DNA of 59,658 bases, taken from NCBI GenBank assembly GCA_020848635.1, contig JADLHS010000241.1, positions 1 to 59,658 of the forward strand, in the 5' to 3' direction. Shown here piece after piece: positions 22,942 through 38,157 of this stretch (position 1 is its first letter; the number at the start of each line of letters is the position of its first letter). The position numbers were made by a program, and so were the translations under genes. This DNA is from Limisphaerales bacterium. Lineage in GTDB: Bacteria > Verrucomicrobiota > Verrucomicrobiia > Limisphaerales > JADLHS01. A model generated the notes under the pieces. The model was not told where the DNA came from, made no database searches, and was given only the letters and a program-made list of their open reading frames with translations.

Positions 22942-23265
22942 TTACTTTGCAATCTTCTCAATCGCCTCAATCAAGTTCGCACTCGAATAGCTGCCGACAA
23001 ACTGGTGCACAATCTTGCCGTTCTTGAAAAGCACCAGGGTGGGGATGCTCTGGATGCCAAAGCGAACAGCCAGTTTCTGCGCATCATCCACGTTGACCTT
23101 GGCAACGGTCGCCTGACCGGCGACGCGGCGGGCGACTTCCTCCAAGACCGGCAGTTGAATCTGGCACGGGCCGCACCAAGGCTCCCAGAAATCCACCAGC
23201 ACTATTTTTTGTTTGAGGGCGGCATGAAAGGACTTGGCGTCGAGTTGAACAATCAATTCGCTCAT
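22942..23265 (-). CDS. trxA: Thioredoxin
   Basis: 107 aa, standard length. Active site WCGPCQ (Cys31, Cys34), cis-proline motif SIPTLVLFKNGK. It acts as a general disulfide reductase. It overlaps the radical SAM gene by 4 bp, yet a TGTAAC-type promoter element lies 75 bases upstream inside the radical SAM 3' coding end, so it probably has its own redox-stress transcript as well as read-through from the long operon. Confidence 0.93.
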   Translation of the reverse strand: MSELIVQLDAKSFHAALKQKIVLVDFWEPWCGPCQIQLPVLEEVARRVAGQATVAKVNVDDAQKLAVRFGIQSIPTLVLFKNGKIVHQFVGSYSSANLIEAIEKIAK

Positions 23266-24329
23266 GATGCCTTTCCCCGGTTTTTCCGGTGCTTACGAGG
23301 ATCCAACGCGGAGGCTCGTGGCCTTGGTAGGTCTATCTTAATTGAGCCGCGACGCTCGAAAACGTTACACGATCCAACGCGCGTGGGCTTGGAGGCGGAG
23401 GGTTGCGTCGGGTGATAATAAACCTGGTCACCGCGCTTTTGACTGACGACCTGCCCTCCCGCTTGCAGGTCTGCCAGGTGCTTCGCCGTTTCGATGGGCC
23501 TCATGGCCAACCCGGCGGCCACGTCCGCTTCGGTGCAGGGACGCCGCCGCAGCAGTTCCAGGATTGACTGTTGATTGGCGTCAGTGGTGAAACGCTTTCC
23601 CTGCTGGTGATACTCGGCAACAACCTCAGCCTTGGGACTGAACACGCCGGCAATTTGGTTCAGCCGGGCCTGCGGCACCGCCATGGCGAAGTCTTCGGCC
23701 GGCGGACGCACAGCCGTGTTTAACTGCACCCTGTCCGGGCGAATGCGCCGGGTCCAATCCGCGAGTTGACGAACTTGCGGCGGCAACGAGGTGTAGCCGT
23801 CGAGCAGCATCACTTCGAGCCAATACTTTCCGGTGAATTGGCGACGAAAGGCCTGCAACCCTTCCACGAGTCGCTCGAAGGTGATGTCTGGATGCGGGCG
23901 GTTGATGAACTCGAACCGCTCCGCATCCGGCGCGTCGAGCGAGGGCAACACCACATCCGCCAACGCCACTTCCTCGCGCACTTCTTTCTGCCAGAGCATC
24001 GAGCCGTTGGTAAGCACCGCCACCGGCACCGCGGTCATGGCCTGGATGTGTTCGATGATTTCACCGAGCCGCGAATGCAATGTCGGTTCGCCCGACCCGC
24101 TAAGCGTGATGTAATCGGGCCGGCAGTTGAGCTTCTGTTTCAACTCGTCCAGCACGGCATCCATCAGCACCCACTCGCGGCGTTTGATCGTCCGGCAGGT
24201 GGTGTGGCCCAACTGACAGTAAATGCAATCGTAGCTGCACGTCTTGAACGGCACCAGGTCCACCCCCAACGAGCGGCCCAACCGGCGGGAAGGCACGGGA
24301 CCGAAGATGTGATTGAGGGTTTCACTCAT
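23262..24329 (-). CDS. Radical SAM protein with C-terminal winged-helix-like region
   Basis: 355 aa. The [4Fe-4S] SAM motif is CSYDCIYC (Cys31, Cys35, Cys38), followed by the GSGEPTLH glycine-rich SAM site and VAVLTNGS. Residues ~245-310 (LELLRRRPCTEADVAAGL...) resemble a winged helix. The final ~45 residues are basic and unlike the family and coincide with promoter copy C, so the tail may be shaped by the regulatory DNA. The substrate is unknown; such proteins are called only radical SAM in databases. It follows the zinc-ribbon gene by 5 bp. Confidence 0.87.
   Translation of the reverse strand: MSETLNHIFGPVPSRRLGRSLGVDLVPFKTCSYDCIYCQLGHTTCRTIKRREWVLMDAVLDELKQKLNCRPDYITLSGSGEPTLHSRLGEIIEHIQAMTAVPVAVLTNGSMLWQKEVREEVALADVVLPSLDAPDAERFEFINRPHPDITFERLVEGLQAFRRQFTGKYWLEVMLLDGYTSLPPQVRQLADWTRRIRPDRVQLNTAVRPPAEDFAMAVPQARLNQIAGVFSPKAEVVAEYHQQGKRFTTDANQQSILELLRRRPCTEADVAAGLAMRPIETAKHLADLQAGGQVVSQKRGDQVYYHPTQPSASKPTRVGSCNVFERRGSIKIDLPRPRASALDPRKHRKNRGKAS
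23340..23369 (-). promoter_or_regulatory. TGTAAC-N17-CTCRRT promoter-like element, copy C (internal, thioredoxin)
   Basis: Minus strand: TGTAAC, 17-bp spacer GTTTTCGAGCGTCGCGG, then CTCAATT. It lies within the last 110 bases of the radical SAM gene, 75 bases before the thioredoxin ATG (23265). The coding location makes it the least expected of the five copies, but spacing and extension match exactly. Confidence 0.6.
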
Positions 24330-24334
24330 GGCAG

Positions 24335-24580
24335 TCAGGCATCACAAGCGGACGAGCCACAGCGCGAATTCCGCCCGCAACAAGTCGTGCCGGTCTGTTC
24401 CAGCGAGCACGATGACCCGCCAGAGCCGCCGCCCTTAAGGATCAGGCCGGCGCCGGCACCGATCAGCCGCCGCACGGGACGCCCGCATTGCGGACACGCC
24501 TTGAGCGGCCTGGCCGACATGCTTTGGGATTTCTCGAAATGGTGGCCGCAGCTCCCACACTCATATTCATACGTTGGCAT
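24335..24580 (-). CDS. FmdB-family zinc-ribbon protein
   Basis: 81 aa. FmdB/CxxC regulator signature: PTYEYECGSCGHHFEKSQS and a second pair in CPQCGRPVRRLI, together one zinc ribbon. The C-terminal half is a Gly/Ser/Cys-rich tail (SCSLEQTGTTCCGRNSRCGSS). These are small putative regulatory or metal-binding proteins; the tail's many cysteines could hold metal. 5 bp separate it from the radical SAM gene. Confidence 0.88.
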   Translation of the reverse strand: MPTYEYECGSCGHHFEKSQSMSARPLKACPQCGRPVRRLIGAGAGLILKGGGSGGSSCSLEQTGTTCCGRNSRCGSSACDA

Positions 24581-24626
24581 GTATCATTTTCTTTCTTTTG
24601 CTTTTGAGCATCGGTTGCCGCTCAGG

Positions 24627-25004
24627 TCAGAGCAATTGTTCGGCGCCGCTGTAAGCCGCTTCGACCCGCAGCCGTGTCGCCGCCACGCCCGGATACTTCG
24701 GGTCATGCCAGGACCGCATGTTCTCGAAGACGGGGCCGTCGGTATGATAGCTGAGCGGACCTTTCACCTGAAACGACTTGCGGTCCTTGGTGAGAAACAG
24801 GATGGCGCCTCTCGATCCGCTTTTAATGTTGGCGCGGGTTTTACAGAAATAATTGTCCGCCACAATGAAACCTGTGCCCGGAACATAGCGGATTTCACCG
24901 ACGTAAATGACGTTGGGCGCTTTTGCCGCGTCCACCGTCGCCAGCACCGCCGGCCCCTCCCGGTTCTCCCAGGCCTGAGCGATGAGTTCCATGCCGTTGG
25001 TCAT
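24627..25004 (-). CDS. Pyridoxamine 5'-phosphate oxidase-family (flavin-binding split barrel) protein
   Basis: 125 aa from ATG 25004. Split-barrel features: REGPAVLATVDAAKAPNVIYVGEIRYV, then DNYFCKTRANIKSGSRGAILFL and FQVKGPLSYHTDGPVF. Such proteins bind FMN, F420 or haem and often reduce small molecules. An upstream in-frame start at 25124 would overlap the CooC-like gene and lacks similarity. It sits 28 bp after that gene. Confidence 0.8.
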   Translation of the reverse strand: MTNGMELIAQAWENREGPAVLATVDAAKAPNVIYVGEIRYVPGTGFIVADNYFCKTRANIKSGSRGAILFLTKDRKSFQVKGPLSYHTDGPVFENMRSWHDPKYPGVAATRLRVEAAYSGAEQLL

Positions 25005-25032
25005 AGACGATATCTTTCTTGGTTGAGGCTGT

Positions 25033-25944
25033 TCATGGCAGAGCGACTCGCCCCCCAGCGAAAGCCCCCCGTTCTTGTTCGAGCGCCCGGACGATCTTCC
25101 CTGCTTCCGCTTCGGCGTGAGCATTGTGTAATGGTGCGCCCTCCAACCAGGCCTGCCGCAGGTCAGTCTCCTCCGGGATGGAGGCCACCACGTTGATCTC
25201 CGCTTCGAGCAGGCGTTGCCATAGGAAGTGCTCGGTGTCCGCGTCCGGCACTTTATTGAGCAAATACAGTGCGCCCTTGGTACGGGCTTCCAGATAATTG
25301 CGCCGCGTCAACTCCACCAACTCAGGCGACGCAAGGTGGCGCGTGGCCGGAAGAAACCCGGCGTGCATTTGGTCCAGCGATGGTTTCATGGTTGCGGCGG
25401 CCCGCACCCCCGCATAGCTGGGGTCCATCACGACGATCACCCAGTCCAGGCGCGTGATGACGCCGCGAGAGGCGTCTTCGATGCCGGCTTTGAAGTCCAA
25501 CACGGTCACCGGTGCGGGGTCGTCCGTCTCGAAGGCAAAATCGCGGGCGATCTTGGTCATCGGACCATCACAGCCTGCACCCGGACCCAGCGGCCCGATC
25601 TTGCCAGCAAGGAACACGCGGATGCCTTCGGAAGTCTGGCCGAAATACCGGGAGGGCAATTGACCTGATCGCACGTGAGCCCCGACAATCGGCACGGGAT
25701 CATCCACCGGACAAGTCACCGGACCGCCGCTGAACACCGTCCCGCCCAACCAGTCCAGGAGCGAGTCGGGGGTCTTGTCCGCGCCCAGCGCCTGGGCCAG
25801 AGCTTCGTTGGTGGAATCGGCGTCCACCACACACACCGCGTAACCGGCCTTGGCCAGTAACACCGTGCAAGTGCTCTTGCCGCTGCCACCGCGTCCGAAA
25901 ATGCCGATGCGCTGGCCCGCGAGCGGTTTGTTTTCTGTGTGCAT
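25033..25944 (-). CDS. CooC/MinD-like P-loop ATPase
   Basis: 303 aa. A deviant Walker A GRGGSGKSTCTVLLAKAG (Lys23) is followed by VVDADSTNEALAQALG and a switch-II DFKAGIEDASRG; the GAGCDGPM segment holds a cysteine where CooC/NifH relatives coordinate metal or a cluster. CooC proteins use ATP to insert nickel into CO dehydrogenase; MinD-like Fe-S carriers (ApbC/NBP35) are close relatives. Neither CODH nor hydrogenase genes are nearby, so the client is unknown. Flanked within 3 bp by ferritin. Confidence 0.85.
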   Translation of the reverse strand: MHTENKPLAGQRIGIFGRGGSGKSTCTVLLAKAGYAVCVVDADSTNEALAQALGADKTPDSLLDWLGGTVFSGGPVTCPVDDPVPIVGAHVRSGQLPSRYFGQTSEGIRVFLAGKIGPLGPGAGCDGPMTKIARDFAFETDDPAPVTVLDFKAGIEDASRGVITRLDWVIVVMDPSYAGVRAAATMKPSLDQMHAGFLPATRHLASPELVELTRRNYLEARTKGALYLLNKVPDADTEHFLWQRLLEAEINVVASIPEETDLRQAWLEGAPLHNAHAEAEAGKIVRALEQERGAFAGGRVALP

Positions 25945-25947
25945 GCT

Positions 25948-26367
25948 CTACATTCCTTTCAACAAACGGCGCAACTCCCGCCCATGGCCGGCTTCATCCG
26001 CGGCCATCTCTTCAAGCTTCATCCGCAAATCCGGGAGCTTCAGTAGTCCAGCAAGTTCCGAGTGCGCCAGGTAATTGGCCACGTCTTCCGCTTCCATCTG
26101 CACGTTGAGAGCAATCATTCCTTTGAGGTCGGCTGGTTTCTCAAATTGCTTGGGCGTGGTCGTCGGTTCGCCACCGAGATCCTGGATCACGTCCATGAGA
26201 TAAGCGGCGTGGCCCAGCTCGTCCAAGGCTTCCTTCGACAGCAGTTCGCGCAACTCCGCTCCCTGCAGTCCGTAGCACTTGGCGGCTTGATAGGTGTAGC
26301 GAATGACCGTGCCGAGTTCGGCGGCGAGGTCCTGGTTTAATCCCTGGATCAATGTTTCTTTGTTCAT
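25948..26367 (-). CDS. Ferritin-like / bacterioferritin-like protein
   Basis: 139 aa from ATG 26367, a four-helix bundle. Diiron ligands can be seen as E in LAAELGTVIRY, the E-xx-H pair in KEALDELGHAAYL, the E in QMEAEDVANYL, and the E-xx-H pair in AADEAGHGREL. It would oxidise and store iron or detoxify peroxide in the cytoplasm. Upstream in-frame extension (to 26574) was rejected as non-homologous. Next to the CooC-like ATPase (3 bp), which suggests iron handling for cofactor assembly. Confidence 0.85.
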   Translation of the reverse strand: MNKETLIQGLNQDLAAELGTVIRYTYQAAKCYGLQGAELRELLSKEALDELGHAAYLMDVIQDLGGEPTTTPKQFEKPADLKGMIALNVQMEAEDVANYLAHSELAGLLKLPDLRMKLEEMAADEAGHGRELRRLLKGM

Positions 26368-26411
26368 GATGTTTTTTGATTGGTTTTTGCGTCTCGTTTG
26401 GGGAAGCGCTT

Positions 26412-26846
26412 CTAGGAGGACGCGATCGGCTGGGGTGCGTCCGTTATCCAGGCGGCCTGTACCGAAGCGACCACCGCGCGCAGCCGGGCGTTGATCGCGC
26501 GGGCGGCTTCGGCCAGGGGCGGATTCGTGTCCGTGTGGCAAAGGTGTTTCAAATCTGCCGTGGCCAGCGTGCACGTGCCGTCGCTATTTTCCCACAGGCA
26601 GACGTGGCTGGGCATGAGCAGGCCGATGTCCGGTTCACGGTTCAGGGCCTCGTACTCCCAAGACGGCACCCAGACGCCAAGGATGGTGTAGGGACGAATC
26701 TTCCGGTTCACTTTCACGGCCAATTGGGCTTGCAGATCAATTTCGGTGATGACGACGAACCCTTCGTCCTTGAGCGCTTGATGCGTTTCGCGAAGCGCCC
26801 GTTCAAAGGGCAGTTTTACGAGCGTGGAGATGCTGAAATGTTCCAT
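26412..26846 (-). CDS. DUF302 domain protein
   Basis: 144 aa. DUF302 pattern: FERALRETHQALKDEGFVVITEIDLQAQL, then YTILGVWVPSWEYEAL and GLLMPSHVCLWENSDGTCTL. A cytoplasmic alpha/beta protein of unknown function often found near oxidases, rhodaneses and thioredoxins. It starts 2 bp after the end of a thioredoxin-like gene. Confidence 0.85.
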   Translation of the reverse strand: MEHFSISTLVKLPFERALRETHQALKDEGFVVITEIDLQAQLAVKVNRKIRPYTILGVWVPSWEYEALNREPDIGLLMPSHVCLWENSDGTCTLATADLKHLCHTDTNPPLAEAARAINARLRAVVASVQAAWITDAPQPIASS

Positions 26847-26848
26847 GA

Positions 26849-27295
26849 CTAATTTCCTTTCGGGTGGGTGCGTTTGGTCTGGAGTGAAACCGTCGCCGCT
26901 GGCTGACGATTCGAGAGTGCGGCTGGTCGGGCCCCACGCCGGTTCCTGCGTGCGTGCAGCAGCGCATAGTCCGCCAGCAAACCCTGTAACTGCGGCTTCA
27001 ATTCACGCGGTGAGCTGGATCCGTCAAAGACCGCGATCGGCGTGCCGCGGTCGAACAGGATCAAGGCCGGAACCTTGGTGAGGTCGTAACGTCGCGCCAA
27101 CTCCGGGTGGTTATCCAGGTTTGTCTGGCGAATGTTCAGTTCCCCGGCCAGTTCAGCAGCGAGCGTTTCCAAGACGGGAAACAGGATGTGGCTTGGGCCG
27201 GACCATGAAGCGTAGAAATGCACCAGTACGGGCTGCCTCGCCGATTGCAGTTGCCGCCCAAACTGGGCGCCGGGGATTTCGATCACATTTTTCAT
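26849..27295 (-). CDS. Thioredoxin-like protein lacking redox cysteines (WSGPS)
   Basis: 148 aa from ATG 27295. Thioredoxin fold: VLVHFYASW, then SGPSH where CGPCK is expected (Ser32 and Ser35 replace both cysteines), and cis-Pro motif KVPALILFDRGT. The last ~40 residues (NRRGARPAALSNRQPA...) are a basic tail. It cannot do thiol-disulfide exchange, so a chaperone, scaffold or decoy role is inferred. Located 2 bp before DUF302 and 10 bp after another thioredoxin-like gene. Confidence 0.82.
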   Translation of the reverse strand: MKNVIEIPGAQFGRQLQSARQPVLVHFYASWSGPSHILFPVLETLAAELAGELNIRQTNLDNHPELARRYDLTKVPALILFDRGTPIAVFDGSSSPRELKPQLQGLLADYALLHARRNRRGARPAALSNRQPAATVSLQTKRTHPKGN

Positions 27296-27305
27296 GGGCA
27301 GCTCC

Positions 27306-27686
27306 TCAATGGTATTGGGCTGCGGCGCTTCGATTCGTAACTGCCTGCGCCAACATTTCGTCCAGTTCGGGTCGCGATAGATCACCGATGAACTGATAGC
27401 TTACCGTCCCGCCGCGGCACAACAGGACTGCGGGCACGGAGCAAATGCCAAATCGTGCTGCCAGCGCTGGAGATTCATTCCGATCGGCTTTGGCGATCGT
27501 CACAAAGCCGCCGCAGCGCGGGGCCGCCGCTGCCAGCAACGTGAGCAATCGGTGGCAGGCAGAGCAGCCGGCGATACAAAACGCGAGCAGCACCGGCGTT
27601 GGCGAGCCCCCGAGGCGCTCCGCAAAAGTGGCGTCGGTGATTTCAACGATGTTGGATTGGAAACCCATGGGAACGTTAGTGTTCAT
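27306..27686 (-). CDS. Thioredoxin-fold protein with CSAC active site
   Basis: 126 aa from ATG 27686 (alternatives at 27707 and 27668). LLAFCIAGCSACHRLL puts a Cys41-Ser-Ala-Cys44 redox pair, plus Cys37, where thioredoxin has WCGPC; the cis-proline motif is CSVPAVLLCRGG. The lost tryptophan and altered dipeptide should change redox potential. The 5' end overlaps the 3' end of the NifX-like gene by about 11 bp. Confidence 0.78.
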   Translation of the reverse strand: MNTNVPMGFQSNIVEITDATFAERLGGSPTPVLLAFCIAGCSACHRLLTLLAAAAPRCGGFVTIAKADRNESPALAARFGICSVPAVLLCRGGTVSYQFIGDLSRPELDEMLAQAVTNRSAAAQYH

Positions 27687-28095
27687 GGTGAGGATGGCCG
27701 TGCTCATGGTCGTGCAAATGACCGTGGTGCTCGCAACCGACCGGCGAAGCGGTCAACCGTCCGGCGAGATAGAGCGCAACGAGGGCATCAATGTGGGCAT
27801 TTATTTCCCCGGCATGCACCGCGATGCCGTGCAAGGCAAAGTTGTCGAGCGCGCGTTTACCGATGCCGCCGGCGATCACCACCCCTACGCCTTGTTCCCG
27901 CAGCCAGCGCGGAAACGCGCCGGGTTGGTGTGGCGGTGCGGGAAGCGTTTGGGTGGCAAGCACGGTCCGCTCCTGGGTGTTGGCGTCCACGAGCGTGAAC
28001 TCGCGGCAGCCGCCGAAATGGCCGTGCAATCGTCCGTCCGCGGACGGGATGGCAATGCGAATGGTGGTTTCTTTTGAAGCAATGGTAGTCGTCAT
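27676..28095 (-). CDS. NifX/NifB-type (dinitrogenase Fe-Mo cofactor) domain protein with His-rich tail
   Basis: 139 aa from ATG 28095. NifX-like domain: IRIAIPSADGRLHGHFGGCREFTLVD and VVIAGGIGKRALDNFALHGIAV. The C-terminus is a histidine run (CEHHGHLHDHEHGHPHHEH), likely a metal store or transfer arm. Family members bind and carry Fe-S or FeMo-co precursors, but many occur in non-diazotrophs near MinD-like ATPases, as here. Start overlaps the methyltransferase stop by 4 bp. Confidence 0.85.
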   Translation of the reverse strand: MTTTIASKETTIRIAIPSADGRLHGHFGGCREFTLVDANTQERTVLATQTLPAPPHQPGAFPRWLREQGVGVVIAGGIGKRALDNFALHGIAVHAGEINAHIDALVALYLAGRLTASPVGCEHHGHLHDHEHGHPHHEH

Positions 28096-28739
28096 GTTTG
28101 TGTTTTCTTTTTTTGGGCAGATGGCGCCGTGGCCACCAGCAGTTCCTGGTTGCAGCCTTTGGATCGTCTGGTTTTCCAGCCGCAACGACGCAACCGGCGT
28201 GCATACTCGGCCAGACTATTTTTCAGGCGGGGATGCGTTCCGCCTTCAAACCGGTGCAGCCGGTCAAAAATCTGAAAACCACGTGGGGAGAGATCGCACA
28301 GGACGAGCTTTCCGCCCGGCTTCAGCACCCGCAGCATCTCCTCCAAAACTTTGTGCGGGTGCTCAAGGTGATGGAAGGTGTTCATGCTGACGACCGAGTC
28401 GAACTTGGCGGTATCCCACGGCAACTGCTCGGCATTGTGGACAAAGAATCGAATCCAGCTGCCGACCCGGGTCTGGCGGATGTGCAGTTTCGCTGCGCGC
28501 TGCTGTTTTGCGTCAACGTCCAAGGTCGTAATGCGGTCCGCGTGCTTCGCCATGGCGGCGAGAAAACGGCCCTTGCCGGTGCCGATTTCCAGCACATGCC
28601 CCGGCAAAGGCAGGGATTTCGCGAGGATGAACTTAAGGCTGGCGCGGGAATCGTAGCCGAAGCGGCGGAACAACCCCTCGCGCTGTTTCATTGCTTGATG
28701 GGTGCGATTCAAGTCGAGTGGCGATTGGTTCATGATCAT
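28092..28739 (-). CDS. Class I SAM-dependent methyltransferase
   Basis: 215 aa. Rossmann motif I VLEIGTGKGRFLAAMA, motif II TTLDVDAKQQ, post-I DSVVSMNTFHHLEHP and LRVLKPGGKLVLCDLSP. Resembles UbiE/Methyltransf_11 enzymes acting on small molecules. A second ATG lies two codons downstream. Substrate unknown; in this cluster a corrinoid, quinone or metalloid (e.g. arsenite) methyl acceptor are possibilities only. Confidence 0.85.
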   Translation of the reverse strand: MIMNQSPLDLNRTHQAMKQREGLFRRFGYDSRASLKFILAKSLPLPGHVLEIGTGKGRFLAAMAKHADRITTLDVDAKQQRAAKLHIRQTRVGSWIRFFVHNAEQLPWDTAKFDSVVSMNTFHHLEHPHKVLEEMLRVLKPGGKLVLCDLSPRGFQIFDRLHRFEGGTHPRLKNSLAEYARRLRRCGWKTRRSKGCNQELLVATAPSAQKKKTQT

Positions 28740-28945: not shown

Positions 28946-29374
28946 TCATTTGAAAGGGCTGGTTTGAGTTTTTTTCTGGTCGCGCTTATCCGCCCCGGTG
29001 GAGTGCTTTTGATGGCAACAGCCACCGTGCGGATGCGCGCCCCAACAACCCGGCATGCGGAACTCGTCGCGCTGGAGTTGGCGGCAACAGAACGCGTGCA
29101 AGACTTTCTCGACCTGGCCACAAACATGCGGCCTTACCCGCACGCCCCGTTTTTCCAGCGCTTTCAACAGCGGTTCGGACAAGGCGGCGCAGAGGAGCAC
29201 GTCCACGTGGAGCTCGGCCACACTGCGTGCCAGCGCGTCCGGCTCCAGCGGCCCCAGCAGTATTTCCCGCCGCCGCAACTCCGCTCCCCGGCGCAGCGTG
29301 ACGACGAGCAGTCGCGTGGCCGCGTCGAACAATGGCGAAATGCGATCCTGCCAGGTGGGACAAGCTACAGTCAC
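28946..29374 (-). CDS. NifX-like protein with Cys/His-rich tail
   Basis: 142 aa from GTG 29374, giving MTVACPTWQDRISPLFDAA, which matches the usual NifX-like start (A-P-W-xR-SP-FD). The frame could begin at a TTG at 29395. LLGPLEPDALARSVAEL and VDVLLCAALSEPLLKAL continue the fold; the tail (CGQVEKVLHAFCCR, MPGCWGAHPHGGCCHQKH) is rich in Cys and His, unlike the His-only tail of its paralogue 850 bp downstream. First gene of the long minus-strand train; 206 bp separate it from the methyltransferase. Confidence 0.75.
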   Translation of the reverse strand: MTVACPTWQDRISPLFDAATRLLVVTLRRGAELRRREILLGPLEPDALARSVAELHVDVLLCAALSEPLLKALEKRGVRVRPHVCGQVEKVLHAFCCRQLQRDEFRMPGCWGAHPHGGCCHQKHSTGADKRDQKKTQTSPFK

Positions 29375-29442
29375 GACTAGTCCAGAGGCATTCAACGTGC
29401 CAGCCCGAGCCCCACGCGGCGCGAAGGCGAAAGGAGCAAGGA

Positions 29443-29752: not shown

Positions 29753-32700
29753 CTACGGTGAAATTTCTTTGACGCGGAAGAAGCGCCGGGGTTCGGTGCT
29801 GATCTGACTTTGCGGCACCACCATTTCCATTGAGCAGGCGGTCGCGGGCAGGTTGGTCAGCGTCAGCCACGAGCCCGTGTTCAAGTTGGTGGTGCTGAGC
29901 AGCTCATACGTGCGGCCCGGAATCGTGGCCCAACTCAGTTTCAAACCAGAAGCGGTTTGTTCGTAGGTGAACGATTGCACCGCTTGCAGCACGGTTTGCA
30001 AATGGGCGGCTTCGGTTGGCGAGTAGCTCAATGCTTTGAAGTCCATCACCCCCGCCGTCGCGTGGCAATCATTGCAAGTCAGCGCGCCGTCGCGTTTGAT
30101 GGCGTGGCTCAGGCTGATGAAGGAACCGGTGACCTCCGTCGGTGGGGCGGTCGGATCATAGGTGGGATCATACGGATTGTTGGGCAGATCAAGGCCGAGC
30201 ACGTCGCCGCTCCAGAAGTTCGCGCCAACCGCGCTGAGCATTTCCGGCGGAGCCCCCCAGGCATCCTGTCCGCCCATCATCAGCCCCAGCCGGCCGAGGC
30301 CGACGTTGACGGCTTCCTGGATGTTGCCGCTGCGCACGTAGGTTTCCTTGTCGAAGTTGAGCAGGTTCGGGTACTGCGCCAACACCGCGCGTTCCTGCGG
30401 ATTGAGCCCGCTGGGCCGCATGAAGCCCATTTGTTTCAACGGGTCCGCCATCGTGTCCATCGCCGCGAGCATGGTGAAGTTGGTGTTGTAATTCGGATCG
30501 TAACCGAAGCCGCGCCGATCCATCACCATGCCGCTGACGATGAAGCGGAAGGGATAAATCTTCGCCTTCGAGGTGTTCTTCGTTGCGACCTGGAAGTCCC
30601 AGGCGTTGGCGTTGTTCATCGGTTCGGCGAGCATGCTTGCTCCGCCGTTGAACCAGCGATAGGCCGGGCGTTGATTGTATTCCTTGCTGTAAACGCTGTA
30701 TGGCTCATACACGCCGTTCGTCGCGTCAAAGATCGGGATGCTGGACTCGGGTCCGTTGGTGACGCCGAAGGTCGGCGCCCAAACGCGGCGCGCAGCGCCG
30801 GAGGTCCACGGGATGTGGCAGGTTTCGCACGCGATGAGCGAGAGGTGTTCGTTATACATCGCGAGTTCCGGGGCCTGGTGCGGCTTGGTCGCACTGTGGC
30901 AGTTGGCGCAATCCACCTCCACTTTCTGGAGATCCCAACCATGCATGTCGGTGACGCGCGAGCCGCGCGCAATCTTGTGGTCCTCCACCTTGTGGCAATC
31001 GGTGCAGGTCAACCCGGCTGCCGCATGCACGTCATGTTCCGGATCAAACGGCGTTCCGCGTTTGTAGTCCGCGGCGGCCTGGCCGTGTTCGTGACAGCGG
31101 TAGCACTGCGCCGTGCCGACTTTTCCGCCCACACTTTCCGCTGCGCGCAACGAGCGATCTTGGAACCACGCGCGCCGACCACTTAAAGAATTGGTGGTCA
31201 ACCCCCGGTGCGAGGCGTCGGCATCCGCTGCCGTGTAAAGGCCGTCGCCGGTCATGTCGTACTTGCCTTCGGCCGCGTGGCAGATCAGGCAATCCACCCC
31301 GTCTTTCTGCGTCTGGCTGAACTTCCCGGTGGTCGGATCCGGGAAGGGCAACTGGTCGCCCACGTGGCATTTGCCGCAGGCGCTGGAGCCTTTGTGCGCG
31401 CCGAGGTCGGCGTAATAGTTCACCATGGCGTTGGCGCCGACGAGGGCACAGAAACGGTCCACCATGCCGTGCGAGCCGCCGCCGGGATACGCGAGGTTGG
31501 AATTGGTGCTGCGCCAGGTGTAGTGCAGGCTGGCCATGACTTCGTCCACCTTGCCGGAATGACATTCCAGACATGCCGCCGAACTGGCGTAATTGGTGCC
31601 GAAGCGCCCGGTGTGATCCGTGCCCGCGATCATGTTTAGATTTTGCAGCCGCGCGACGCGATTGGATTCGTAGCCGAGTTGCGCGAAGGGGATGCGACCG
31701 TCCTCCACATGGCAGTCCAGGCAGGTCAACGCCTGTTCCTTGGGCGCAACCATGTGGTTTTGAATCCAATACATCTCCGTGTTGACCCAGCCCATTTGCC
31801 CGCTGAAGGTCTGCCCCACCGCGGCCATGCCGGCGTTGATGGCGTTGGTCCAATCGTAGCCTTTCCAATACGCGTTGGTGTCATTCGCATTCAGCGCGAA
31901 CAAATGCGGGATGACGAGCTTGTTGCTGACGACATCGTAAGGTTGCACGGCAGTGAAACGTTTCACCGGGATGATCCGGGCGCGGCCTTGATTCTTGTCG
32001 CCCTGCAATTGGTTCAAGGTGTTCATTTGCGCGGGGTTGATCGTGTCTTTCAACTCCGTCCAGATGACGCCGCCGTTGAACCAGACGTAGTCCGGCACAA
32101 CATTGCTGGCCCAGGTGAACGTGCCCTTCATCGTGTCATAAATGACGTTGCCGGAGGCGTCCTTGATTTGCAGGAGACTGCCATTCGTGCCTTTCACGCC
32201 GGCGGTGGACCAATCCCAAGTCATTTTGGTCGCCTTGCCGCCACGCGCGAAATGCGGAACGTGACAGGTCTGGCAGGCGATGCGGCCCGTGTGGGCGTTG
32301 TAATAGATGCCGTCGTCCGTGTTCCAGTGCGGCGTGGGCGAATGACAATCCTCGCACAGCCAGTTGTCGGGGGCGGGCTTGGAGTAACGCGAGCCGACCA
32401 TGTCATGCGCGCTGCTGCCGGGTTCAACGGAACGGTGGCAATCCGCGCAGGACATGTTCGCGCCGTCCACGCCCATGTGAACATCCAGTTCGCGCGTCGG
32501 GTTGGTCAGGGTGGAATCCAGATCACCATGTTTTACGGCATCGCCGCCCCCGCCGTAAAAATGGCACGCACCACAGGTCGCGCGGCTGGTCTTGCCCGCA
32601 TGCATGGCGACGTTGGTGTGATTCACGCTCGGGTCCGGCACGCCAGCGCCGGTCGGCGTCTTCTTGTAAGTTCCCGTGGTATCGTGGCAGACGACGCAGT

Positions 32701-33097
32701 CAATGTTGGTGACGTTGTTGAAATCAAAAGTATTGTCCCGCCAACCGATGCCGATGTGGCAACTCGTGCACCGGGGTTCGTTCGACGGCGTGGCGATGCA
32801 GTAATTGTTGATGATGTTCCGCTTTCCCATCACCTGCGCGGCATGGCCGGAAGGTTTGTTCGTCGCCGCCCACGTCCAGTGGGTGCCTTTCATGACCTCG
32901 CCCGCACGATCTTCGCCGGGAATCAACCCGCCAACGCCGTGACAATTCAGACAGGTAGCCGTGCCAGTATATGCCAACCGCATCAGGGTGTGGATTTCCG
33001 GTTGTGCGTGGCTCGAATGCGCCGCAACCAAAAAGCTGGTGAGTAGGATCAAGGAACGGAGTGCGGCTCGAGAAGCAGCGGATTGACTTGTTTTCAT
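29753..33097 (-). CDS. Secreted 16-haem cytochrome c: tandem fusion of two octahaem (OTR-like) modules
   Basis: 1114 aa from ATG 33097, with a signal peptide ending near HSSHA (~31). Sixteen CxxCH sites start at C49, 110, 134, 175, 217, 248, 275, 459 and again at C509, 574, 603, 665, 698, 730, 757, 1008: two sets of eight with the same order and flanks (CHIGIGWRD vs CHVGDQLPF; DCVVCH vs DCLICH; CHVPHFARG vs CHIPWTSGA). Module 1 carries NIDCVVCHDTTGTYKK and CHFYGGGGDAVKHGDLD, as I recall from octahaem tetrathionate-reductase-family cytochromes. Residues ~1035-1114 form a non-haem domain ending RRFFRVKEISP. Periplasmic or outer-surface electron transfer is expected; the true substrate (tetrathionate, nitrite, hydroxylamine or none) is unknown. 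An upstream in-frame start at 33283 was rejected because it precedes the sigma-54 promoter. Confidence 0.9.
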   Translation of the reverse strand: MKTSQSAASRAALRSLILLTSFLVAAHSSHAQPEIHTLMRLAYTGTATCLNCHGVGGLIPGEDRAGEVMKGTHWTWAATNKPSGHAAQVMGKRNIINNYCIATPSNEPRCTSCHIGIGWRDNTFDFNNVTNIDCVVCHDTTGTYKKTPTGAGVPDPSVNHTNVAMHAGKTSRATCGACHFYGGGGDAVKHGDLDSTLTNPTRELDVHMGVDGANMSCADCHRSVEPGSSAHDMVGSRYSKPAPDNWLCEDCHSPTPHWNTDDGIYYNAHTGRIACQTCHVPHFARGGKATKMTWDWSTAGVKGTNGSLLQIKDASGNVIYDTMKGTFTWASNVVPDYVWFNGGVIWTELKDTINPAQMNTLNQLQGDKNQGRARIIPVKRFTAVQPYDVVSNKLVIPHLFALNANDTNAYWKGYDWTNAINAGMAAVGQTFSGQMGWVNTEMYWIQNHMVAPKEQALTCLDCHVEDGRIPFAQLGYESNRVARLQNLNMIAGTDHTGRFGTNYASSAACLECHSGKVDEVMASLHYTWRSTNSNLAYPGGGSHGMVDRFCALVGANAMVNYYADLGAHKGSSACGKCHVGDQLPFPDPTTGKFSQTQKDGVDCLICHAAEGKYDMTGDGLYTAADADASHRGLTTNSLSGRRAWFQDRSLRAAESVGGKVGTAQCYRCHEHGQAAADYKRGTPFDPEHDVHAAAGLTCTDCHKVEDHKIARGSRVTDMHGWDLQKVEVDCANCHSATKPHQAPELAMYNEHLSLIACETCHIPWTSGAARRVWAPTFGVTNGPESSIPIFDATNGVYEPYSVYSKEYNQRPAYRWFNGGASMLAEPMNNANAWDFQVATKNTSKAKIYPFRFIVSGMVMDRRGFGYDPNYNTNFTMLAAMDTMADPLKQMGFMRPSGLNPQERAVLAQYPNLLNFDKETYVRSGNIQEAVNVGLGRLGLMMGGQDAWGAPPEMLSAVGANFWSGDVLGLDLPNNPYDPTYDPTAPPTEVTGSFISLSHAIKRDGALTCNDCHATAGVMDFKALSYSPTEAAHLQTVLQAVQSFTYEQTASGLKLSWATIPGRTYELLSTTNLNTGSWLTLTNLPATACSMEMVVPQSQISTEPRRFFRVKEISP

Positions 33098-33319: not shown

Positions 33320-34672
33320 TCACCTGGCGGCAGCGCGATCCGGCGATCCCACCCCCAAGGCTTTGATTTTCCGGAACAACGTGCTGGGGTCCACGCCCAG
33401 TTCGCGGGCGGCGGCAGCGCGATTGCCCTCGTTTCGACGTAGCGCATCGCGCACCAGCAGTTTCTCCATCGCGGCCAAGGTCAGTCCTGCGGGCAAGGCC
33501 AACCCCGACGTTCCGGCGTCGCCGCGCAACTGGGGTGGCAGGTGAGCGGCCTCAATCAGGCCGGTGCGGCACAACACAAACGCATGTTCGATGATGTTCT
33601 CCAACTCGCGCACGTTGCCGGGAAAATCGTGTTCCATCAAGCGCGCCAGCACAGCGTCCGACACCCCGGCAATGTCGCGTCCTTTCAGACGATTAAACCG
33701 CGCCACCAGATGGTCAATCAGCAATGGCAAATCCTCGCGCCGGTCGCGCAGCGCGGGGAGTTCCAAGCGCACCACGTTGACGCGGTAGAACAGGTCTTCC
33801 CGAAACTTTCCCTCGCGCAGCAGCGCCACCAGCGATTTGTTGGTGGCGGCGATCACCCGCACATCCGCGCGCACCGGTTCCACCCCGCCCAATGGCTCGT
33901 AAACCCGCTCCTGCAGGACGCGCAACAATCGCGTCTGCATTGCGGGAGCGATGTCGCCGATTTCGTCGAGAAACAAAGTCCCACCCTCCGCGAGCGCAAA
34001 CCGCCCGGGCTTGTCTTTGCGGGCGTCAGTGAACGCCCCCGCCTTGTAACCGAAGAGTTCGCTCTCCAGCAGCGTGTCGGGCATTGCGCCGCAGTTCAGG
34101 GCGACAAATTTCATTCCTTTGCGGGGTGAAAGTTCGTGGATGGCGCGGGCAAACAATTCCTTGCCCGTACCGCTCGCGCCTTCGAGCAACACAGTGCTGC
34201 CGCTTTCCGCCACGGCCGGAAGCAGTTCAAACAATTGCCGCATCGCCGCGCTACGCCCAATGATGTTGGAGAACGAATCCTGTTGCTCGGCTTGCTCCCG
34301 CAGTTCCGCCAGCAGGCGCAGGTCACGAAAGCTTTCCACGCCGCCAATCACCTTGCCGCGCGCATCCTTGAGCGGTGCGGTGGATATGCTGATGGGAATG
34401 CGTTCGCCCTGGGCGTTCACAATGTAAACGACCTTGTTGGCAATCGAACGGTGCGTTACCAGCGTTTGCCGCAACGCGCAGGCCGTCTCGCAAATGCTGG
34501 CGCGAAAGACTTCGCAGCACCGTTGCCCCACGGCTTCTTCCCGTTTGATGCCCGTGATCCGCTCCGCCGCGCGGTTGAACGAGGTGATGCGCCACTCGGC
34601 GTCCACCGTGAACACGCCGTCGGGCACAGAATCGAGCAGTTGGTTTTTAAGATTTTGATCCATTTCCAGCAT
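33320..34672 (-). CDS. PAS-domain sigma-54-dependent transcriptional activator
   Basis: 450 aa from ATG 34672 (or 34663). PAS domain ~10-120 with several cysteines (GQRCCEVFRASICETACALR), which may bind a redox-active ligand or metal; AAA+ domain ~140-370 with LLEGASGTGKELFARA (Walker A), FGYKAGAFTDARKDKPG (the sigma-54 contact loop, GAFTDA rather than GAFTGA), GTLFLDEIGD (Walker B) and FPGNVRELEN; Fis-type helix-turn-helix at ~405-445 (NRAAAARELGVDPSTLFRKI). Lacks a receiver domain, so it senses directly through PAS. It most likely drives the cytochrome gene immediately downstream. Confidence 0.9.
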   Translation of the reverse strand: MLEMDQNLKNQLLDSVPDGVFTVDAEWRITSFNRAAERITGIKREEAVGQRCCEVFRASICETACALRQTLVTHRSIANKVVYIVNAQGERIPISISTAPLKDARGKVIGGVESFRDLRLLAELREQAEQQDSFSNIIGRSAAMRQLFELLPAVAESGSTVLLEGASGTGKELFARAIHELSPRKGMKFVALNCGAMPDTLLESELFGYKAGAFTDARKDKPGRFALAEGGTLFLDEIGDIAPAMQTRLLRVLQERVYEPLGGVEPVRADVRVIAATNKSLVALLREGKFREDLFYRVNVVRLELPALRDRREDLPLLIDHLVARFNRLKGRDIAGVSDAVLARLMEHDFPGNVRELENIIEHAFVLCRTGLIEAAHLPPQLRGDAGTSGLALPAGLTLAAMEKLLVRDALRRNEGNRAAAARELGVDPSTLFRKIKALGVGSPDRAAAR

Positions 34673-34804
34673 CCGCTGGGAACACTGCGGTGCCAGACTA
34701 TCTTGGTTTGAATCCCGCACGCTGGCAACGTGATTCCAACGGTCGCTGGCCCCGCGCAACTTCTCGCGGCGGGGCTTGGCACCGGCACTGCTTAAGTCCC
34801 AACC

Positions 34805-35248
34805 ATGACCGGTTCCATTCCAATGCCCGATGCCGCCGCACAACTCACCCACGTTCAGGCCACCGCGCATCCGTTTTGTTTCGCCTGCAGCGCCTCCAAT
34901 CCGATGGGGTTGGCGCTGCGTTACAGCACCGCGCCGGACGGCAGCGTCAGCGCACGCTTTATCGGCAACTGCGCCCTGGAAAGTTATCCCGGCGTGTTGC
35001 ATGGCGGTCTGGTCGCCACACTGCTCGACGGGGCCATGACGAACTGCCTGTTCGCGCGGGACATCCGGGCCATGACCGCCGAACTCCGCGTGCGCTATCG
35101 GTCTCCCGTTTCGGCGGCGGAAGAGTTGACGGTTCGCGCGTGGTTGGAATCATCGCATCACGGTCTTTTTGAAATGCGGGCGGAAATCACCCAAAGTGGC
35201 AGCCTCAAAGCCCGGGCTAACGGCCGATTCATCAGTCCCAATGAGTGA
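34805..35248 (+). CDS. PaaI-type hotdog-fold thioesterase
   Basis: 147 aa. Hotdog features: HPFCFACSASNPMGLALRY near the N-terminus and the helix motif YPGVLHGGLVATLLDGAMTNCLF, followed by TAELRVRYRSPVSAAEELTVRA. Expected acyl-CoA thioesterase activity in the cytoplasm. Its last 8 bp overlap the start of the MBL-fold gene, so the two are coupled. Divergent from the sigma-54 activator, with ~130 bp between. Confidence 0.82.
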   Translation: MTGSIPMPDAAAQLTHVQATAHPFCFACSASNPMGLALRYSTAPDGSVSARFIGNCALESYPGVLHGGLVATLLDGAMTNCLFARDIRAMTAELRVRYRSPVSAAEELTVRAWLESSHHGLFEMRAEITQSGSLKARANGRFISPNE

Positions 35249-36083
35249 AAACCTCCGCATCACCTTGCTCGTGGAGAATAGCGTCCAACGTCAGGGACTG
35301 GTCGCCGAACATGGGTTGTCCTTTCACATTCAAATCGGCGAGCGCAGCCTGCTCTTCGATACGGGCCAGACCGACCTAGCGTTGATGAACGCGGAACCCT
35401 TGCGCCTCCCGCTGGACCGATTGCAGGCCATTGTTTTGAGCCACGGTCACTACGACCACACCGGTGGACTGCCCGCAATTCTCGATGCCGCACCGAACGC
35501 TCCGGTTTACCTCCATCCGGCCGCCTTCGAGAAAAAATACAGCAAGAGTCCCAATGGCAAGACGCGGTTCATGGGCATGAATCCGACGACGGCGCAGGCA
35601 CTGCATGGCCGACGCAATTACGTCGAAACCACTCGTTGCACGCAACTCGGGGACGGAATCTTTGTTACGGGAGAAATCCCGCGCGTCAACCCTTACGAAG
35701 ATACTGGCGGCGCATTCTTCCTGAATGCCGATGGCACACGGCCTGACCCGCTCACAGACGATCAAGCCCTGGTGATTGACCTCGGTTGCCGCGTCGTCCT
35801 ACTGCTGGGCTGTGCTCACGCAGGCGTGATTAACACTCTTGATCACGTCCAACATCTGACCGGAGGAAAACCTGTGCGCGCCGTGATTGGCGGATTGCAT
35901 TTGGGTTCTGCCAGTGCAGAACGCATTGAGCAGACCATCGCCCGACTGCGCGAGACAAACCTCGAATGCCTCGCCCCCATTCACTGCACTGGTTGGCCGG
36001 CAACGGCTCAACTGTGGCAGGCTTTTCCAGACATTTGCCGCCCGGCTGGCGTCGGTACGGACTTTGAGTTCAAACGCGATTAG
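35241..36083 (+). CDS. MBL-fold metallohydrolase
   Basis: 280 aa from ATG 35241. The metal motif is LSHGHYDHTGG (His68, His70, Asp72, His73); further ligands in LLGCAHAGVINTLDHV and a late GGLHLG and CTGW. It resembles the group annotated as 7,8-dihydropterin-6-methyl-4-(beta-D-ribofuranosyl)-aminobenzene-5'-phosphate synthases, although that name is rarely meaningful outside methanogens. With a thioesterase before it, and rhodanese and CoA-disulfide reductase genes convergent, persulfide or thioester chemistry is plausible. Confidence 0.82.
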   Translation: MSENLRITLLVENSVQRQGLVAEHGLSFHIQIGERSLLFDTGQTDLALMNAEPLRLPLDRLQAIVLSHGHYDHTGGLPAILDAAPNAPVYLHPAAFEKKYSKSPNGKTRFMGMNPTTAQALHGRRNYVETTRCTQLGDGIFVTGEIPRVNPYEDTGGAFFLNADGTRPDPLTDDQALVIDLGCRVVLLLGCAHAGVINTLDHVQHLTGGKPVRAVIGGLHLGSASAERIEQTIARLRETNLECLAPIHCTGWPATAQLWQAFPDICRPAGVGTDFEFKRD

Positions 36084-36448
36084 GCTTTGCCGCCGATAAT
36101 TTGTTTCGCCCGCCCATGAGAGCCGAGGTTGAAAACATTCGGGTAACCCAACCTTTTCAGTTGGTATTTGGCGATTCCACTGCGTCCGCCGCTCAGACAG
36201 TGAAGGAGCAATACTTGGCTTTTGTCCTTCACCCGGCGCGGCAGGCTTTCGCGCAATTCGCCCAGCGGAATGTTGATCGCGTTCGGAACGTGTCCGCTGC
36301 GAAATTCTTCCGGCGAACGCACGTCAATCACCAGCGCGCCGGTGGCCAGATGTTTCCGGGCCACGTCGGCCGACACAAACAACAAGGGCTTCAGCAGAAA
36401 CACGGCGGCGATCACCCCGCCCACAATTAACAGCAAGCTCCAGAACAT
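36080..36448 (-). CDS. Membrane-anchored rhodanese-like sulfurtransferase
   Basis: 122 aa. One N-terminal helix (SLLLIVGGVIAAVFLL) then a single rhodanese domain: LVIDVRSPEEFRSGHVPNAINIP (in part) and the active-site loop HCLSGGRSG with Cys84. It would move sulfane sulfur from thiosulfate or persulfide at the membrane. It lies 24 bp downstream of the CoA-disulfide reductase and overlaps the convergent MBL gene by 4 bp. Confidence 0.88.
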   Translation of the reverse strand: MFWSLLLIVGGVIAAVFLLKPLLFVSADVARKHLATGALVIDVRSPEEFRSGHVPNAINIPLGELRESLPRRVKDKSQVLLLHCLSGGRSGIAKYQLKRLGYPNVFNLGSHGRAKQIIGGKA

Positions 36449-36472: not shown

Positions 36473-38146
36473 CTATGGCGTGGGTAGTTTGGCGGGCGAG
36501 CGCGGGTCAAAGTGGGCGCGGATGCCGCCGGTGAGGGTCGAAACTTGAAATCCGCTTTGCGCGAGGATGCGGGCGGCGAAATACGCGGTCTTGCCGAGCG
36601 CGCAAACCGTCACGACCGGACGGGTGCGATCCAACTCGCCCAAGCGTTGGCGCAGAGCGGTAAGTGGAATGTTCACTGAACGGACCTGCGTCAGTGGGTG
36701 CGCCTGCACCAGCGGCGCCGGACGGCTGTCCACCACCTGCACTGCCGGGTCGTCGGGAATGGCGTCAATGGGCGTCACCAAACCATTGCGGGCGTTGCAG
36801 GCGGCAAAGCCAGCGAGGTTAACGATGTCCTTCGCCGCACCGAAAGGCGGCGCGTAGGCGAGTTCTAGTTGCGCCAGGTCATCAATGGTCAGGCTACCGG
36901 TGATGGCCGTGGCCAGCACGTCGAGGCGTTTGTCCACGCCGAGGAAGCCGGTGACTTGCGCGCCCAGCACGCGCCCCGTTTCAGGTTCCCAGAGCAACCG
37001 CAACAGAAGCGGCTTCGCGCCGGGGTAATAACCGGCGTGGTGGTTGTCGTTGACGGTAACAGCGCGGTACGCGCGCCCCGCCGCGCGAAGGCGTTTTTCC
37101 GACCAACCGGTCAGCCCGGCGGCGACATCGAAGGCGCGCACAATAGCGGTGCCAAGCGCACCCATGTAAGGTTTGGTTTGGTTCGGACGAAAAATATGAT
37201 CCGCCGCCAGCCGACCCTGCCGATTGGCGGGGCCGCCCAGTGGAACGGCTGTCGCTTCACCGCTGACGAAGTCTTTGATTTCGACCGCATCGCCGGCGGC
37301 GTAGATGTCGGGATCGCTGGTCTGCATGAACGGATTAACGCGGATGTGGCCGCGCGGCCCCAGTTCCAGTCCGGCAGCCCGAGCCAGCGCCGTGTCCGGG
37401 CGCACGCCGATGCTGAGCACCACGAGATCAGCCGGGATGGTGCGGCCCGATTTGAGATGGCAAGTGAGGACGGAATCACCAACGAAGCGTTCGATGCCAT
37501 CACCGAGGATCAGTTCAATGCCGTGACGGCGAAGCTCGTCTTCCATCAAGCGCGTCATGTCGCGGTCGAGCGGCGGGAGCACTTGATCCTGGAGTTCAAC
37601 CAGCGTGACCTGCTTGCCGAGCCGCACGAATTGTTCTGCCATCTCGAGGCCGATGAAGCCCGCGCCAATCACGGTCACGCGTTGCGCGCTCGCGGCGGCT
37701 GACTTGATGCGATCCATGTCCTGCAACGAGCGCAGGGTGAAAAGGCGCGGATCATCAATGCCCGGCAGTTTAGGGCGTAGCGGCACAGCTCCGGGCGCAA
37801 GGAGCAGCTTGTCGTAAGACAGCCACTCAGTTGCGCCGGCGGCTACCTCGCGCACCTGGACGCGCTTCCCCGGTCGGTCAATGGCAACCGCTTCGGTGCT
37901 GGTGCGCACGTCGAGCGCGAGCATCGCCTTGAGGGTTTGCGGGGTCTGCACGGCGAGCGCGTCGCGCTGTTTGATTTCGCCGCCGATGAAATAGGGCAGC
38001 CCGCAGTTGGCGAAGGAAACATCCGGGCCGCGCTCAAGCACCGTAATCTGGGCGGCTTCGTCGAGCCGCCGGGCGCGAGCGGCACAGGAAGCCCCGGCGG
38101 CCACGCCGCCGACAATTACCAATCGTTTCTGGTTCGTGAGACTCAT
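36473..38146 (-). CDS. CoA-disulfide reductase-type FAD oxidoreductase fused to rhodanese
   Basis: 557 aa from ATG 38146. N-terminal FAD site IVGGVAAGASCAARARR, active cysteine Cys48 in SFANCGLPYFIGG, NAD(P)H site VTVIGAGFIGLEMAEQ, YAAGDAVE, then a C-terminal rhodanese domain with VVTVCALGKTAYFAARIL. Such fusions (CoADR-Rhd) reduce CoA-disulfide, CoA-persulfide or polysulfide with NAD(P)H. An ATG at 38155 lies only 2 bases after the -10-like element of promoter copy D, so the 38146 start is chosen. Cotranscribed with the membrane rhodanese. Confidence 0.9.
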   Translation of the reverse strand: MSLTNQKRLVIVGGVAAGASCAARARRLDEAAQITVLERGPDVSFANCGLPYFIGGEIKQRDALAVQTPQTLKAMLALDVRTSTEAVAIDRPGKRVQVREVAAGATEWLSYDKLLLAPGAVPLRPKLPGIDDPRLFTLRSLQDMDRIKSAAASAQRVTVIGAGFIGLEMAEQFVRLGKQVTLVELQDQVLPPLDRDMTRLMEDELRRHGIELILGDGIERFVGDSVLTCHLKSGRTIPADLVVLSIGVRPDTALARAAGLELGPRGHIRVNPFMQTSDPDIYAAGDAVEIKDFVSGEATAVPLGGPANRQGRLAADHIFRPNQTKPYMGALGTAIVRAFDVAAGLTGWSEKRLRAAGRAYRAVTVNDNHHAGYYPGAKPLLLRLLWEPETGRVLGAQVTGFLGVDKRLDVLATAITGSLTIDDLAQLELAYAPPFGAAKDIVNLAGFAACNARNGLVTPIDAIPDDPAVQVVDSRPAPLVQAHPLTQVRSVNIPLTALRQRLGELDRTRPVVTVCALGKTAYFAARILAQSGFQVSTLTGGIRAHFDPRSPAKLPTP

Positions 38147-38157
38147 ATCGTTCATAG

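Follow-up and report, generated by a model that had tools for sequence, protein, structure and literature searches.

The octahaem tetrathionate reductases (OTRs; family TIGR04315), exemplified by SO4144 of Shewanella oneidensis (PDB 1SP3), are the closest described relatives of the protein reported here, a cytochrome with sixteen haem motifs. Known OTRs are single octahaem units. Other multihaem proteins that invite comparison include HmcA, a member of the Desulfovibrio Hmc family that is built from cytochrome c3-type repeats, and the NrfA and HAO-type enzymes. In OTR, seven haems have bis-His ligation and one, the catalytic haem, is ligated by a lysine (PMC11024163). MmcA, a methanogen relative of OTR (family TIGR04314), lacks the catalytic haem motif and the lysine, and works as an electron conduit (PMC11024163). 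HmcA of sulfate reducers carries, like our protein, sixteen haems per chain (PMC5539420, PMC8840924); no HmcA chain in the PDB matches our protein at E≤1. NrfA and HAO-type proteins are multihaem reductases that act on small substrates, and give a non-significant sequence match alone (best NrfA chain in the PDB, E 0.69). The gene in question lies on the minus strand at positions 29753..33097 of contig JADLHS010000241.1 (assembly GCA_020848635.1) from a Limisphaerales bacterium, which was analysed as a single window of 59,658 nucleotides. In contrast to the known OTRs, its 1114-residue product has a second octahaem module, without the lysine, and a Verrucomicrobiota C-terminal domain fused C-terminally to an OTR module (referred to below as modules 2 and 1, respectively). 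Full-length relatives in three other genomes show that this 16-haem architecture is real and recurrent.

An earlier sequence-only reading of this locus had described an exported 1114-residue protein with sixteen CxxCH motifs in two octads of parallel order, each with a remote eighth haem, an OTR-like first module, GKYDM in place of the GTYKK lysine motif in the second, and a C-terminal domain of Verrucomicrobia type. All of these features stand, the strand being the one point on which it was silent, and the comparisons that it proposed, of the halves with each other and with octahaem families, and of the locus with other Verrucomicrobiota, each gave matches. The CxxCH motifs begin at residues 49, 110, 134, 175, 217, 248, 275 and 459 in the first half and 509, 574, 603, 665, 698, 730, 757 and 1008 in the second; composition-preserving shuffles of the protein contain 0.04 such motifs on average and 2 at most. 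The spacings (61, 24, 41, 42, 31, 27 and 184 residues, then 65, 29, 62, 33, 32, 27 and 251) run in parallel and leave the eighth motif far from the other seven in both halves. The halves share 25% identity in BLASTP (E 1e-30), and hhalign pairs the profiles of their two families at 100% probability.

The protein begins with a putative Sec-type signal peptide (33002..33097, minus strand; residues ~1-32) with predicted cleavage after SHA; of all 15-residue stretches in the chain, residues 11-25 have the highest hydrophobicity. A short linker (31583..31639, minus strand; residues ~487-505) joins the modules, and neither hydropathy nor comparison of the fusions revealed a hydrophobic stretch or signal peptide at the junction. 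At the other end, a β-sandwich-like domain (29756..29980, minus strand; residues ~1040-1114), modelled by AlphaFold with a predicted local distance difference test score (pLDDT) of ~80-86, reaches the stop codon. Among 320 genomes of the order, full-length fusions of this type are found in four: the window's genome, G600 (72% identity), G477 (68%) and G649 (63%), the last three belonging to three other families.

Module 1 (31640..32977, minus strand; residues ~41-486) has the characteristics of an OTR. The NCBIfam TIGR04315 profile scores 634 bits with the whole protein and 500 bits with the module 1 stretch alone, against a curated cutoff of 375, and 1sp3 is matched by sequence at E 3e-107. 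The same structure is the sole significant Foldseek match (E 4.5e-26, TM 0.74 by target) of the predicted module 1 model, which is of low confidence. Both DCVVCHDTTGTYKK and YGGGGDAVKHGDLD are located in this module. Outside the haem motifs, exactly seven histidines are invariant across 10 OTR modules (H73, H190, H207, H231, H257, H269 and H448), and Lys146 (32660..32662, minus strand), at the position of the lysine ligand of the OTR catalytic haem, is invariant in all ten. This set of seven histidines and one lysine matches the seven bis-His haems and one Lys-ligated haem of OTR. Position and conservation thus suggest that Lys146 is the catalytic lysine; other conserved lysines exist in OTR. 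These features mark module 1 as a genuine octahaem module of the OTR type, which would be expected to have the corresponding activity.

Module 2 (29990..31615, minus strand; residues 495-1036) is clearly related to OTR. It matches the OTR family profiles in hhalign with 100% probability (E 3e-45), its own profile finds 1sp3 at E 8e-29, and it has the same motif order as OTR. It scores 139 bits against TIGR04315, however, and stand-alone relatives of it score 150 and 164 bits, all below the cutoff. This and the absence of the catalytic lysine rule out an ordinary OTR. The lysine is replaced by methionine in all eight module 2 sequences available (M615 here aligns with Lys146). Six of the seven invariant OTR histidines are kept and two that are peculiar to module 2 (H543 and H719) are added, giving eight invariant non-motif histidines in 8/8 sequences, or one candidate ligand per haem. 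The position of the lost lysine is occupied by an EF-hand- or dockerin-like Ca2+-loop pattern, D614-M-T-G-D-G-(5)-D625 (31223..31258, minus strand). The pattern D-x-[NT]-x-D-[GA]-x5-D occurs around M615 once in each of the eight module 2 sequences and in none of 14 other octahaem-containing proteins. That this loop binds Ca2+ is a prediction from sequence, as is any assignment of the haem-2 ligand. Ligation by His/Met at M615 was considered as the sole solution and is weakened, because M615 is the second position of the EF-hand-like loop and two extra invariant histidines are present.

Nor is module 2 peculiar to the fused gene. Stand-alone module 2 proteins, with their own signal peptide and C-terminal domain and no OTR half in the chain, are encoded in G019, G499 and G458, the last identical to a protein of a Verrucomicrobiales metagenome-assembled genome (MAG; L036). 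They are 58-63% identical to our protein over module 2 and the C-terminal domain, and keep both the change from lysine to methionine and the Ca2+ loop. The idea that module 2 is an OTR silenced inside the fused gene has therefore to be corrected, since the family also exists as free-standing secreted proteins. In a tree, module 2 and the OTR modules form separate clades, each with support of 100/100. On these alignments and this phylogeny, module 2 shares ancestry with OTR but is a distinct, previously unnamed sister family.

Why should an OTR be joined to such a module? Part of the answer may lie in its membrane connections. The OTRs that have a C-terminal membrane helix (those of G039, G477, Photobacterium and Paracoccus) are directly followed by a cytochrome b gene, whereas none directly follows the fused forms or those with the C-terminal domain. 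This contrast suggests that module 2 takes the place of the membrane electron donor. For the C-terminal domain itself, of ~70-75 residues and ending F-[FY]-R-V, the fused protein gives no Pfam hit. Dozens of proteins of the order that are otherwise unlike one another carry it (L002-L032), and in nearly all of them it ends 0-2 residues from the stop codon, in the manner of a sorting or anchoring domain. A search for SprA, which would have pointed to type IX secretion, was negative, with a control that was equally silent.

The explanation that we prefer, and to which we would give about even odds, is that the protein is a secreted or periplasmic reductase that carries its own electron wire, with module 1 as catalyst and module 2 as relay; haem ligation, Ca2+ binding, direction of flow and substrate are all putative. 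The His/Lys-ligated haem of module 1 would reduce a small oxidised substrate, most likely a compound of the sulfane-sulfur or sulfur-oxyanion kind, for example tetrathionate or polysulfide. In module 2 the catalytic Lys haem would have been shut down, with methionine in its place within the Ca2+-loop pattern. With the two new histidines bringing the total to eight, all haems of this module are probably six-coordinate, implying a relay that supplies module 1 with electrons (or draws them off). MmcA offers a precedent for such a role; unlike MmcA, with its seven haems, module 2 keeps eight, and the TIGR04314 profile gives 50.9 bits against a cutoff of 250. Whereas the anchored OTRs of the order would receive electrons through the co-encoded cytochrome b, the fused form, with neither anchor nor cytochrome b, would receive them from other cytochromes by way of module 2, and the C-terminal domain would place the protein. 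More tentatively, module 2 may represent a new family of octahaem proteins, one where the catalytic Lys haem of OTR was converted into an electron-transfer haem controlled by the Ca2+ loop, making the fusion a soluble, self-wired 16-haem reductase that needs no anchor or cytochrome b and was reached more than once within one order.

The sequence-only reading had also proposed a catalytic module and a wire module. Ligand counting strengthens this division, with lysine and seven histidines in 10/10 OTR modules and loss of the lysine with eight histidines in 8/8 module 2 sequences. Several points nevertheless weigh against our explanation. The physiological substrate of OTR is cryptic even in Shewanella, whose enzyme accepts nitrite and hydroxylamine as further substrates in vitro (PMC11024163). 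The sulfur-related gene neighbourhood described below is not conserved at the fusion loci of G477 and G649, which lie on short contigs. The AlphaFold models, which are haem-free, have a mean pLDDT of 54 for the full-length protein and 50 for module 2, too low to say which histidine or methionine caps which haem; the module 2 model has no Foldseek match, and the usable parts are confined to module 1 and the C-terminal domain. With models this weak, the split between catalyst and wire is an inference. Module 2 could, finally, have an activity of its own.

If so, the protein would have two catalytic modules. Module 2 would then keep a substrate-binding haem, for instance one with His/Met or labile ligation at M615 under the control of Ca2+, and would have another specificity, the product being channelled between the two sites. 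The retention of all eight CxxCH motifs, a mean column identity of 75% and a long insert with conserved residues ahead of haem 8 are what such a role would predict, and an enzyme might well exist as a free-standing secreted protein. The catalytic lysine is missing from every one of the eight sequences, however, and their eight invariant histidines are enough to cap every haem, so that we regard a second active site as unlikely.

A comparably low probability attaches to the idea that the whole chain is a conduit for extracellular electron transfer, carrying electrons towards the cell surface or away from it, with catalysis by module 1 incidental or lost. The position of the C-terminal domain at the extreme end of nearly all its unrelated carriers would suit a sorting domain, and candidate cytochromes for extracellular electron transfer are known in Verrucomicrobia (PMC6344600). 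A 16-haem relative in G653, moreover, adjoins a nine-haem MtrC/MtrF-like protein. Yet all four OTR-type fusions keep the catalytic lysine and the OTR signature in module 1, and no porin-cytochrome partner was found in the window, where the fused gene is the sole open reading frame with at least two CxxCH motifs. The G653 protein (L042 / L062) has the same module 2 joined to a different, YRR-type first module, and its gene is divergent from that of the MtrC/MtrF-like protein, which carries Ca2+-binding TSP3 repeats.

The genes around the fusion bear on the substrate. Directly upstream is a regulator with PAS, sigma-54 activator and Fis-type helix-turn-helix (HTH) regions (33320..35002, minus strand), followed by a metallo-β-lactamase-fold hydrolase (35169..36083, plus strand); both are kept beside the fused gene in G600. 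Further upstream are a single-domain rhodanese (36080..36448, minus strand) and a CoA-disulfide reductase or Npsr-like persulfide reductase with a C-terminal rhodanese domain (36473..38155, minus strand), which has the same domain make-up as the NADH-dependent persulfide reductase (PMC7969121). Downstream, all on the minus strand, lie two NifX/NafY-like proteins, the nearer being a small Nitro_FeMo-Co protein (28946..29395 and 27676..28185; both kept in G600), two thioredoxin-fold proteins (26849..27707), and a set comprising a ferritin-like protein, a ParA-like ATPase, a radical SAM protein and a thioredoxin (22942..26574). Homologues of this last set are found beside the membrane-anchored OTRs, all four in G477 and all but ParA in G039.

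Homologues of the persulfide reductase also adjoin the fused gene of G600 and the stand-alone OTR of G458, and occur in 12 of 13 genomes with these cytochromes compared with 17 of 54 without them (Fisher p 8e-5, phylogeny ignored). In Dethiobacter, rhodanese genes are reported near OTR/SirA-like octahaem genes (PMC10376724). This neighbourhood, the co-occurrence and the Dethiobacter report together lead us to favour sulfur over nitrogen chemistry with moderate confidence. Reduction of nitrite or hydroxylamine by the fusion, with the sulfur-related neighbours a coincidence, would be in keeping with the in vitro activities of Shewanella OTR. We nevertheless think this rather improbable, given the persulfide reductase, rhodanese and thioredoxin genes around the fusion, and given that no neighbouring protein scanned exceeded the cutoff of a nitrogen-oxide reductase family.

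The window's genome is a MAG-like draft of 706 contigs (92.6% complete, 4.95% contamination), and the fused gene was not found in genomes of the same genus. An artefact of assembly or binning that joined two adjacent octahaem genes can nevertheless be dismissed as the source of the fusion, contig binning aside: three independent full-length fusions occur in different families, their linkers are homologous, and none has a signal peptide where the modules meet. With the nearest fusion in another family, the presence of the gene here may reflect transfer, loss or misbinning of the contig, which are not separable on this pattern.

Stand-alone OTRs were found in seven genomes of the order, and G458 encodes OTR and module 2 in two genes, each on its own contig. 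In a class-wide sample of 384 genomes, module 2 was found within the order alone, and the matches outside it were OTR-like and more distant; a phylum sample of 388 genomes added nothing but a distant octahaem protein. A genome-wide scan with two narrow peptide patterns for module 2 returned a single locus, weak evidence of its absence beyond the order; phage records gave no match and plasmid records OTR-type matches only. Approximately unbiased (AU) tests mildly reject a single clade both for the four fused module 2s (p 0.027) and for the four fused OTRs (p 0.015), and the two halves of the G649 fusion group with the separate G458 proteins. These results imply either more than one fusion or a single fusion followed by splitting; the linkers, which look homologous, fit either history.

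The sequence-only reading had regarded the architecture as new. No description of the fusion was found in the open-access subset of the literature; the fusion is not unique, since it recurs within one order. The novelty would appear to lie in the joining of a known enzyme family to an undescribed sister family. The ways in which catalytic haems are lost or gained by multihaem enzymes, and in which such enzymes come to be wired to other electron partners, are still debated, mostly by comparing distant relatives. Here the catalyst and its presumed wire have a common origin, follow one another in a single chain and are also encoded as separate proteins, and a change from lysine to methionine within a Ca2+-loop pattern marks the entire presumed wire family. 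Anchored OTR with its cytochrome b, OTR bearing the C-terminal domain, free-standing module 2 and the fusion form a natural series that can be tested. The finding is, in addition, a pointer to sulfur redox metabolism within an order of Verrucomicrobiota.

Some further relatives and features were noted. Decahaem proteins in G653 (L050) and G649 (L051) combine an octahaem part resembling OTR, in which the lysine site reads YKR, with two additional haems and long haem-free C-terminal extensions. More distant octahaem proteins of 838-970 residues, with CX4CH as first motif, come from the same family and order (L007, L009 and L016). A free-standing octahaem relative of 468 residues in G143 (L034) scores 288 bits with TIGR04315, below the cutoff, and has a CX4CH sixth motif and YRR at the lysine motif. 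Very long open frames lie on the strand opposite the fused gene in G600 (1180 residues; L059, 10080-13622) and G649 (1224 residues; L061, 1943-5617); they probably reflect composition and are not genes. Finally, the radical SAM protein downstream of the fusion (window 23262-24329) has a C-terminal ArsR-type HTH region, and may belong to an OTR-associated gene set shared with G477 and G039.

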